Assembly (NCBI GenBank): GCA_026709335.1
Contig: JAPOTE010000006.1
Location: 1 to 64,000 of the forward strand
Reading direction: 5' to 3'
DNA length: 64,000 bases
Source of the DNA: Bacteroidota bacterium
GTDB lineage: Bacteria; Bacteroidota; Rhodothermia; Rhodothermales; Bin80
Translations under genes and position numbers: made by a program
In this document: piece by piece, positions 1,283 to 4,888 of the stretch
How positions within the stretch are numbered: the first letter of the stretch is position 1
Layout: every line of letters starts with the position of its first letter
Notes under the pieces: generated by a model
What the model was told of the DNA's origin: nothing
Database searches by the model: none
The model's input: the letters and a program-made list of their open reading frames with translations, nothing else

Positions 1283-1324
1283 ATGCCTAATCCATTTTTC
1301 TTTCTCGGCGCCTTACTTGGATAG
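1283..1324 (+). CDS. pheST leader peptide (Phe-rich attenuator peptide)
   Basis: A 13-codon frame, ATG at 1283 to TAG at 1322-1324, encodes MPNPFFFLGALLG with three consecutive Phe codons (TTT TTC TTT, 1295-1303). It lies directly between rplT and an intrinsic terminator in front of pheS. This is the same architecture and position as the E. coli pheM leader of pheST, whose stalled ribosome controls attenuation. Codon content, position and the alternative RNA strands around it make a leader peptide far more likely than chance. No clear ribosome binding site is visible, which is common among the annotated genes of this window. Translation itself is inferred. Confidence 0.82.
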   Translation: MPNPFFFLGALLG

Positions 1325-1388
1325 GGGCCGAATGTAGGACGGTGAACGCATTCCCGCCCCTGCTTATGCAGGACTGGCGGGTTTTTTT
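1305..1388 (+). promoter_or_regulatory. Transcription attenuator of pheST (mutually exclusive hairpins)
   Basis: Four strands can be seen. Strand 1, TCGGC at 1305-1309, lies just after the Phe codons and pairs with GCCGA at 1327-1331. Strand 2, AGGGGC at 1323-1328, can instead pair with GCCCCT at 1356-1361. That 1356-1361 strand is part of the 5' arm of the terminator at 1353-1388. A ribosome stalled at 1295-1303 would cover strand 1, free strand 2 and break the terminator. A ribosome that reads through would leave the terminator able to form. This is the classic amino-acid attenuation logic; stabilities were not computed. Confidence 0.8.
1353..1388 (+). terminator. Intrinsic terminator in the pheS leader
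   Basis: CCCGCC (1353-1358) pairs with GGCGGG (1376-1381). Inside this, CCTGC (1359-1363) pairs with GCAGG (1368-1372) around a TTAT loop, with a three-base bulge (1373-1375). Seven T residues follow at 1382-1388. This is a strong 11-bp GC-rich rho-independent terminator, ten bases before the pheS ATG. It can end infC-rpmI-rplT transcripts and act as the terminating form of the attenuator. Confidence 0.9.
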
Positions 1389-1398
1389 ATTTGATGAA

Positions 1399-2434: not shown

Positions 2435-4888
2435 ATGAAGATCTCATATAACTGGTTGTCTGAATACATTGACCACGGATTATCCCCCGATGATCTCGCT
2501 GACTCCTTGACCATGTTTGGGCTCGAGGTTGAGAAGACAGAACGGAGTATTCTGTCACTGGACGGGGTCATCGTCGGGCATGTACAGTCAGTTAGCCAAC
2601 ACCCCAATGCGGATCGTCTGAAAATCTGCCAAGTTGATCTTGGCAATCATGAGATCGTACAGATTATCTGCGGTGCCTCGAATGTTGCCATGAATCAACG
2701 AGTACCCGTTGCAACTGTCGGTGCCAAATTGACCACCGAAAACGGAAAAACTCTCGAGATCAAAAAGGCAAAAATTCGTGGGCAGCAATCCATGGGAATG
2801 ATCTGTGCCGAGGATGAATTGGGTTTATCAGATAACCACCAAGGGATCATGGTTCTCACTGGCACATCCAACATTGGCGAGTCCATAGAAGAGTATCTGC
2901 ACCGAGAGCGTGGGATAGTCAGTGATGCCTCCTTTGACCTGGCAATCACACCAAATCGACCTGATGCCACATGCCATATGGGCATTGCACGAGACCTTTC
3001 TGCTCTTCTAAATATACCTCCAAAATTCCCTGACATCACTCTTCATGCCGATGGAGATGAAGCAGTAGAATGGATTGATGTCAAAATTCAATGCCCTGAT
3101 AAATGTGCCCGATATTCTGCAATGATTGTCCAGGATGTCACCGTTACAGATTCTCCCGTCTGGCTGAAACAACGCTTGGAATCGATTGGACTACGTCCCG
3201 TCAATAATATTGTAGACGTCACCAATTTTGTGATGTTTGAGTGTGGCCAGCCATTGCACGCTTTTAACTATGACCAAATTGCCCAGAAGAAAATTATTGT
3301 TCGCGAATCTAGGGCAGGAGAAAAATTTGTCACCCTCGACGGCAAAGAACATTCACTGAACGATGGAATCATCCTGATTTGTGACGGAGAGCAACCTGTG
3401 GCACTTGGGGGCATCATGGGAGGTAAAAACTCAGAGGTCAGTAATTCAACCACAAACATATTGATTGAAAGCGCATGGTTTGATACCTCCCGGACGAGAC
3501 GTTCTGCTAAAGCGCTGGGCATTTCAACGGATGCGTCCTACAGATTCGAACGTGGTGTAGATTCGACACTCCAACCCTGGGCAGCAATGAGAGCTGCACA
3601 ATTGATTGCCGAGTTAGGCGGGGGCACAATCGTTCCGGGAATTGTTGATATACATCCACGCCCAAAACCGGCCCAAACCATTGATCTGCGAATCTCACGA
3701 ATCAGGAAAATTCTGGGTACAAAGATTGACGATTTCCGGGTTACCCAGATCCTTGCATCTTTAGGCTTTCAACCAAAGCAACAGGACACTGGAGTCATCT
3801 CTTGCACCATCCCCGCTTATCGTCCGGATGTTCAACTTGAGATTGATTTGATTGAGGAAATTGTTCGAATTCATGGTTTGGAAAACATAGGTATTAGCAA
3901 ATACTCCACTCTGCAACTCTCCATCCCACTTCCACGATCTGAAGATAGATTGCGCGAACAGGCACATAGCCACCTGACCGGACATGGATTTCGCGAAATC
4001 TATACAAACAGTTTACTGCCGAACGATTTAGCCGAACAATTCAGTCATGAAGTTCTTGAGACCAACTACCCCCCGGTTCGTACCCTGAATGCAGCCTCAT
4101 CATCTATGGCAACCCTTCGACCGTCACTGGTGCCCGGAATGCTGATGGTCATGCAGCACAATACACATCATTCCCAGCGAGTACTAAGATTTTACGAATT
4201 CGGTCATTTATTTCACCAAAGCACAGATCAGGCAACATTTATTGAGAATTACTCCGAGTATGATGGACTCCTGCTCGGAATCAGTGGTCCTGTGCAACCT
4301 GAAAACTGGGACGGTAATACTCGGATCACAGATTTCTTTGACCTAAAGGGGGAGGTTAGCCAACTCTTGGATACATTGCGGCTCAACACATTGGAAATGC
4401 AATTCAACAACCAGGCATCAAAAATCACGGAGTACCATATTACCCTCTACTCCAACGAAATTCGTTTGGGAGCCATTGCAAAATTATCCAGAGAAATTCA
4501 GGCATCCTATGATCTTCCCGATCCTGTCTTTTTTGCAGAATTCAACTGGACTCGACTGACCCTCTTACATGAAAACGCACCCGATCCAACATATGAGCCT
4601 GTTTCACCTTTTCCGGTGGTAGAGCGAGATCTTGCAGTATCTGTGGATCGATCGCAGCCCGTTGCCCCAATGATCACGGCCCTCCAAAAAGCTGGAATAC
4701 CGCTGCTCAAGGACATAAAAATCTTTGATGTATATACTGGCAACCGGATTCCCAAAAATCAGAAGAGCATTGCATTTGCACTCCGCTTCGGAACTAATCG
4801 AACCTTACGTGATCATGAAGTTGATCAGTTCATGAAAAAATTTGTTAATGTTCTTTTTGAACAATTTGATGCCACTCTGCGTAATTAG
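2435..4888 (+). CDS. pheT: Phenylalanyl-tRNA synthetase beta subunit
   Basis: The 817-residue protein begins MKISYNWLSEYID. Domains in order are an N-terminal EMAP-type tRNA-binding OB fold (about residues 40-150, with HPNADRLKICQVDLG), the B3/B4 editing domain that removes mischarged Tyr, B5, the degenerate class II core, and a C-terminal ferredoxin-like anticodon-binding (FDX-ACB) domain from about 720 (FPVVERDLAVSVD). Length and domain set match full-length bacterial PheT. It follows pheS by four bases. Confidence 0.97.
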   Translation: MKISYNWLSEYIDHGLSPDDLADSLTMFGLEVEKTERSILSLDGVIVGHVQSVSQHPNADRLKICQVDLGNHEIVQIICGASNVAMNQRVPVATVGAKLTTENGKTLEIKKAKIRGQQSMGMICAEDELGLSDNHQGIMVLTGTSNIGESIEEYLHRERGIVSDASFDLAITPNRPDATCHMGIARDLSALLNIPPKFPDITLHADGDEAVEWIDVKIQCPDKCARYSAMIVQDVTVTDSPVWLKQRLESIGLRPVNNIVDVTNFVMFECGQPLHAFNYDQIAQKKIIVRESRAGEKFVTLDGKEHSLNDGIILICDGEQPVALGGIMGGKNSEVSNSTTNILIESAWFDTSRTRRSAKALGISTDASYRFERGVDSTLQPWAAMRAAQLIAELGGGTIVPGIVDIHPRPKPAQTIDLRISRIRKILGTKIDDFRVTQILASLGFQPKQQDTGVISCTIPAYRPDVQLEIDLIEEIVRIHGLENIGISKYSTLQLSIPLPRSEDRLREQAHSHLTGHGFREIYTNSLLPNDLAEQFSHEVLETNYPPVRTLNAASSSMATLRPSLVPGMLMVMQHNTHHSQRVLRFYEFGHLFHQSTDQATFIENYSEYDGLLLGISGPVQPENWDGNTRITDFFDLKGEVSQLLDTLRLNTLEMQFNNQASKITEYHITLYSNEIRLGAIAKLSREIQASYDLPDPVFFAEFNWTRLTLLHENAPDPTYEPVSPFPVVERDLAVSVDRSQPVAPMITALQKAGIPLLKDIKIFDVYTGNRIPKNQKSIAFALRFGTNRTLRDHEVDQFMKKFVNVLFEQFDATLRN

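Follow-up and report, generated by a model that had tools for sequence, protein, structure and literature searches.

The closest described system is the pheM-pheST-ihfA locus of E. coli (pheM at 1799226-1799270 of NC_000913.3), and pheST attenuation has been mentioned for gamma-proteobacteria (PMC1262725). Outside the Proteobacteria, comparative analysis predicted leader-peptide attenuators at trpS and leuS of Streptomyces (PMC1262725), and a histidine leader peptide is described for hisS/hisZ of bacilli, for which a convergent origin has been discussed (PMC2965389). Both resemble the element described here in being cases of synthetase control beyond the Proteobacteria, but the former involves other synthetases in another phylum and the latter belongs to Firmicutes and senses histidine. 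Leader-peptide attenuators have also been suggested in Bacteroidota, from transcriptome data on Flavobacterium psychrophilum, but these concern amino-acid biosynthesis operons, and pheS does not appear in the main text (PMC9723704). Whereas leader-peptide attenuation of tRNA synthetase genes has so far been a matter mainly of Proteobacteria and Actinobacteria, the locus examined here very probably works like E. coli pheM, which would make it a pheST attenuator outside the Proteobacteria with lineage-specific twists. No description of a pheST attenuator in Rhodothermales was found in the literature searched; the survey of Lopatovskaya et al. 2010 may overlap.

The window, meaning the whole stretch of 64,000 nucleotides (64 kb) analysed, shares with E. 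coli the gene order infC-rpmI-rplT-leader-pheS-pheT, and all features given below lie on the forward strand. rplT (ribosomal protein L20; 922-1278), an ORF with homologues in 59/59 relatives, ends in a TGA at 1276-1278. Downstream, pheS (phenylalanine--tRNA ligase alpha subunit) occupies 1399-2430, with 48-62% identity to the PheS of other genomes, and is followed by an ORF at 2435-4888 which, from its sequence, position and family knowledge, we take to be pheT, for the beta subunit. The closest named PheS proteins come from Rhodothermaceae, Rhodothermus and Rubrivirga MAGs (58-62% identity), which bears out the original prediction that the element lies outside the enterobacteria. A Phe-rich 13-codon frame had been noted between rplT and pheS, and it and the other noted features lie exactly where they had been placed: the leader peptide ORF MPNPFFFLGALLG (1283-1324), starting 4 nt downstream of rplT, reads ATG CCT AAT CCA TTT TTC TTT CTC GGC GCC TTA CTT GGA TAG, with the three adjacent Phe codons (TTT TTC TTT) at 1295-1303, and Phe-run ORFs are conserved in relatives. 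On both strands of the 64 kb, this leader is the only short ORF in which clustered sensing-type codons are followed by a terminator.

The alternative RNA strands and the terminator proposed for this leader were likewise recovered. Strand 1 (1305-1313; TCGGC at 1305-1309 and CCT at 1311-1313) pairs with strand 2 (TAGGGGCCGA, 1322-1331) through TCGGC and GCCGA (1327-1331), extended by CCU (1311-1313) and AGG (1323-1325), with a fold energy of -14.1 to -14.4 kcal/mol. Strand 2 has a second possible partner in strand 3 (GCCCCTG, 1356-1362), where AGGGGC (1323-1328) pairs with GCCCCT (1356-1361), plus U1322:G1362 and a GAAUG/CAUUC extension; in RNA before strand 4 exists, this fold has -18.0 kcal/mol. 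Strand 3 is common to this antiterminator and to the intrinsic terminator at 1353-1388 (-19.9 kcal/mol), which consists of CCCGCCCCTGC TTAT GCAGG ACT GGCGGG (1353-1381) followed by T7 (1382-1388) and contains strand 4 (1368-1381; GCAGG at 1368-1372 and GGCGGG at 1376-1381). A consensus terminator scan did not pick up the hairpin at 1353-1388, probably owing to its 3-nt bulge. The same bulged hairpin forms the terminator in relatives, and CCCGCCCCTG-loop-CAGG-NN(N)-GGCGGG is retained almost everywhere, as expected if strand 3 serves two partners. In nearly all leaders the stop codon lies inside strand 2 or directly adjoins it; in the window it lies inside (TAG, 1322-1324).

Our analysis indicates, with a probability of about 0.88, that pheST is controlled here by ribosome-mediated transcription attenuation in response to charged tRNA-Phe. 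The leader ORF with its three Phe codons is followed, in the right order, by pairings that exclude one another and by a terminator, and the targets are the Phe-tRNA ligase genes themselves. The 4 nt between rplT and the leader leave no room for a promoter, there is no clear ribosome-binding site, and many relatives have the leader start and the rplT stop overlapping in an ATGA; together these points suggest that transcription of the leader comes from rplT by readthrough and its translation from reinitiation. Polymerase arriving from infC-rpmI-rplT would transcribe the leader, and ribosomes finishing rplT would probably reinitiate at the nearby leader ATG; the transcript might alternatively start at a promoter inside rplT. 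When Phe-tRNA is ample, the ribosome would reach the stop at 1322-1324 and cover strand 2, allowing the terminator at 1353-1388 to form and the transcript to end before pheS. When it is scarce, the ribosome would stall on the Phe codons (1295-1303) and cover strand 1 (1305-1313); judging from usual footprints, a ribosome with a Phe codon in its A site should extend to roughly 1307-1316 and leave strand 2 free. With strand 4 still to be transcribed, strand 2 (1322-1328) could then pair with strand 3 (1356-1362), giving readthrough into pheST. In an untranslated leader, the 1:2 stem would form and the terminator would prevail. The transcript boundaries and the response to Phe starvation implied by this scheme are predictions. 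As the leader would be fed from rplT, the attenuator would also terminate the ribosomal-protein operon at its 3' end.

Folding agrees with the original prediction in that both states form separately (2:3 at -18.0 and 3:4 at about -20 kcal/mol), and with a ribosome placed at the stop codon, so that strand 2 is covered, the remaining RNA folds as the terminator (-20.9 kcal/mol). The two states do not come out evenly matched, as even with strand 1 masked the finished terminator fold is, at equilibrium, stabler than the antiterminator (-27.1 versus -20.8 kcal/mol). Antitermination would therefore require 2:3 to form while strand 4 is still inside the polymerase, perhaps with polymerase pausing as a further aid. 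Competition can also come from a small CCUUA/UAGGG hairpin if the ribosome has not advanced far enough along the Phe run. Folding of a single sequence by itself is weak evidence, with z = -0.72 for 1240-1420 and -2.9 for the leader itself (1283-1389).

To follow the element across relatives, the rplT-pheS gap was extracted from about 100 genomes. A single order, sampled in 15 families, makes up our "relatives" set, to which the "class" set adds the remaining members of the class; we infer that the single order is Rhodothermales and that the remaining members, its sister order, are Balneolales. The original prediction had staked its case on related genomes having the small ORF and the pairing strands, and both recur in 9/15 families (f1, f2, f3, f5, f6, f7, f9, f12 and f14), with differing sequences that still pair. 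Rhodothermus- and Salinibacter-like genomes are among the carriers. Such breadth bears on the strongest rival, that the hairpin does no more than terminate the infC-rpmI-rplT operon, that the Phe ORF is accidental, and that pheST is expressed from its own promoter or by passive readthrough. T-rich stretches do give Phe in any frame, and the sister order as well as families f10, f11 and f13 have a terminator with no leader. In the genus of the window, however, 10/10 genomes have a leader with three or more clustered Phe codons whose stop lies 10-75 nt 5' of the terminator, against 0.01 expected from dinucleotide shuffles. Among other Rhodothermales loci with a terminator, 23/59 have at least two clustered Phe codons (shuffle expectation, 1.1), a count from a conservative script that missed two loci, L025 and L028, which have a leader.

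The spelling of the Phe codons also argues against an accidental ORF. Within the genus it varies while Phe is retained (TTT TTC TTT; TTC TTT TTT; TTT TTC TTT TTC), and in the Salinibacter-like family f14 the leader carries FRFAFAF or FQFAFAF, with spaced Phe codons, TTT/TTC swaps and no T-run, indicating that the Phe codons themselves are what is retained. Leader L012 reads MRFGFPVFGSALSL, and that of L032, a Rhodothermus sp., is nearly identical to the leaders of the G017/G031/G050 group. With Phe codons elsewhere spaced and synonymously varied, a stop within or beside strand 2, and an antiterminator that co-varies, we consider the terminator-only account improbable.

Co-variation was assessed by scoring each genome's strand 2 as a duplex with every genome's strand 3 and comparing own with permuted pairs. 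This duplex-energy permutation test replaced counting of covarying positions in the MAFFT alignment A1, an approach abandoned because the AGGGGC/GCCCCT core hardly varies there and strand 1 is misaligned. Across 29 leaders, own pairs average -17.2 versus -15.1 for permuted ones, and 0/20,000 permutations were as good. As the permutation leaves within-family relatedness in, the trustworthy figure is that for one leader per family (9 families), where own pairs score -18.0 versus -14.6 (P = 0.0005). A genome's strand 2 fits its own strand 3 better than does the strand 2 of another family. Three cases are clear: the Rhodothermus-like antiterminator pairs CCTGTAACCGGGGCG with CGCCCCTGTTACAGG; some genera of family f5 pair GTTGAAGG with CCTTCAAC, while other f5 genera pair CTGTAG with CTACAG; and L176 has GGGAT with GTCCC where the remaining leaders have GGGGC with GCCCC. 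The 1:2 stem is present in the window and in most relatives, suitably placed for stalling at Phe to mask strand 1, and its permutation P values are 0.0024 (29 leaders), 0.025 (17 leaders) and 0.10 (one per family, a weak result), which leave 1:2 a supported candidate for a conserved part. Parts, conservation and 2:3 co-variation together support the pheM-like attenuator logic that had been proposed. The f5 leaders (L115, L142, L169, L175, L177, L178 and L183) have a single Phe codon, and their co-varying antiterminators reach into the terminator loop.

Two further accounts fare worse. The small ORF might be a translational coupler that carries rplT ribosomes to pheS by reinitiation, with no Phe sensing, and the ATGA overlap in many relatives (in the window the start lies 4 nt off) would suit such a role, as would the leader genes proposed to boost translation through reinitiation in bacteria including Bacteroidetes (PMC4833913). 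Such a coupler leaves the Phe codons, the antiterminator and the terminator unexplained, however, and in the window 74 nt and the terminator hairpin separate the leader stop from the pheS start, which makes this account very unlikely. Equally hard to credit is another RNA sensor (a T-box, an L20-binding autoregulatory site or some other structured RNA) overlapping the small ORF by chance: many Firmicutes do control pheST by a T-box, and in E. coli the operon encoding L20 is regulated by L20 itself, but the whole leader RNA is only about 105 nt, its stems lack sequence conservation except in the AGGGGC/GCCCCT core, and Rfam families, T-box included, gave no match to the window's leader at gathering thresholds or even at E <= 5.

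If the element is an attenuator, its sensing codons need not be the same throughout the order. An unexpected feature of most leaders, other than those of the genus and of f14, is an Arg codon right before the Phe codon(s), which is always CGA and always followed by TTT. CGA-TTT is found in 23/23 such leaders, or 20/20 once near-duplicates are removed (L015, L017, L018, L020, L023, L024, L029, L030, L111, L114-L116, L127, L142, L169, L170, L175, L177, L178 and L183), and the positions flanking it on either side are variable. In those families, CGA encodes 4-11% of the Arg residues of RplT and PheS. Of the RplT residues that are invariant across these 20 genomes, 0/45 keep one codon, and at the 12 invariant RplT Arg sites CGA is used in 0-2 of 20 genomes. 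In f5, where the leader has one Phe codon, CGA is still present; the window's leader is without it, and CCA precedes FFF.

In a his-leader reporter, CGA is slowly translated and lifts attenuation (PMC4046918). As CGA is invariant in these leaders though rare, a natural reading is that a built-in slow codon makes a weak Phe sensor sharper. We tentatively suggest, at rather less than even odds, that most Rhodothermales families sense through the dicodon CGA-UUU and not through a Phe run, with slow CGA holding the ribosome at the start of Phe. An inosine tRNA might read CGA slowly, so that a single Phe codon could suffice to sense tRNA-Phe charging, and the same conjecture might account for lineages without CGA mostly having three or four Phe codons. 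CGAUUU is possibly a conserved RNA hexamer with another role; pairings with downstream sequence, sought by eye, were inconsistent between lineages. The invariant CGA offers a natural test of how codon speed tunes attenuators, for which engineered his leaders served previously.

The leader is dispensable, as 6/15 sampled families are without it. Four of these (f8, f10, f11 and f13) have a terminator only, as seen on reading their loci. In f4, pheS has moved away from rplT, and inspection by eye of two of its three loci showed no Phe leader plus terminator ahead of pheS. In f15 (L130-L133 and L182), the rplT-pheS gap is 0-27 nt and both leader and terminator are lost, so that pheST is presumably co-transcribed with rplT with no attenuator control. 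In the sister order, a leader was found in 0/21 loci, the rplT-pheS order being retained with a plain terminator. Many genera in the rest of the class (L145-L168) have in this gap a terminator with an ACCGG...CCGGT stem followed by a T-run, and no leader.

To extend the comparison, 395 genomes from the whole phylum were searched with a covariance model of leader plus terminator (R1). Matches better than 1e-4 fall in Rhodothermales only, at the rplT end wherever the position of rplT is known, and the window's own genome has a single match. In the rest of the class R1 gives weak scores only, of 15.6 bits or less, and the weak matches beyond Rhodothermales, with E values from 5e-4 to 0.008, are about what chance would give over 395 genomes. 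ORFs with Phe clusters before pheS, seen at 7/79 loci nearly all from other Bacteroidota, are scattered with no shared pattern and were taken as chance. Upstream of hisG, trpE, ilvB, thrA and pheA in the same genome as the window, no comparable leader was found.

How this element is related to E. coli pheM can be judged from what the two share and where they differ. Both have a Phe-rich leader, antiterminator and terminator alternatives, and identical controlled genes. In E. coli, however, rplT and pheM are 122 nt apart with a terminator and a promoter-like sequence between them, and pheM lies 283 nt from pheS, whereas the Rhodothermales leader abuts or overlaps rplT and lacks that intervening terminator and promoter. 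Its terminator would also, unlike that of E. coli, double as the end of the ribosomal-protein operon. At E <= 5, R1 did not match the pheM locus of E. coli (L185). With R1 unmatched there, and the sister order keeping the gene order with no leader, an origin independent of pheM, which the original prediction had raised, is favoured by the sequence comparison though not proven. An entire order next to Bacteroidota using such a switch at the place of pheM, with a sister order that is without it, would be a clean case in which to ask if switches of this kind arise repeatedly. A switch that is at the same time the end of an essential ribosomal-protein operon would link PheRS supply to ribosome synthesis, and cultured strains among the Rhodothermus and Salinibacter relatives make it testable.

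At the head of the same gene cluster, in the region 120-240 of the window, infC appears to begin 5' of the position where its first ATG stands. The probable start is an ATC codon near 127-130, which resembles the non-standard starts that infC has in other bacteria.
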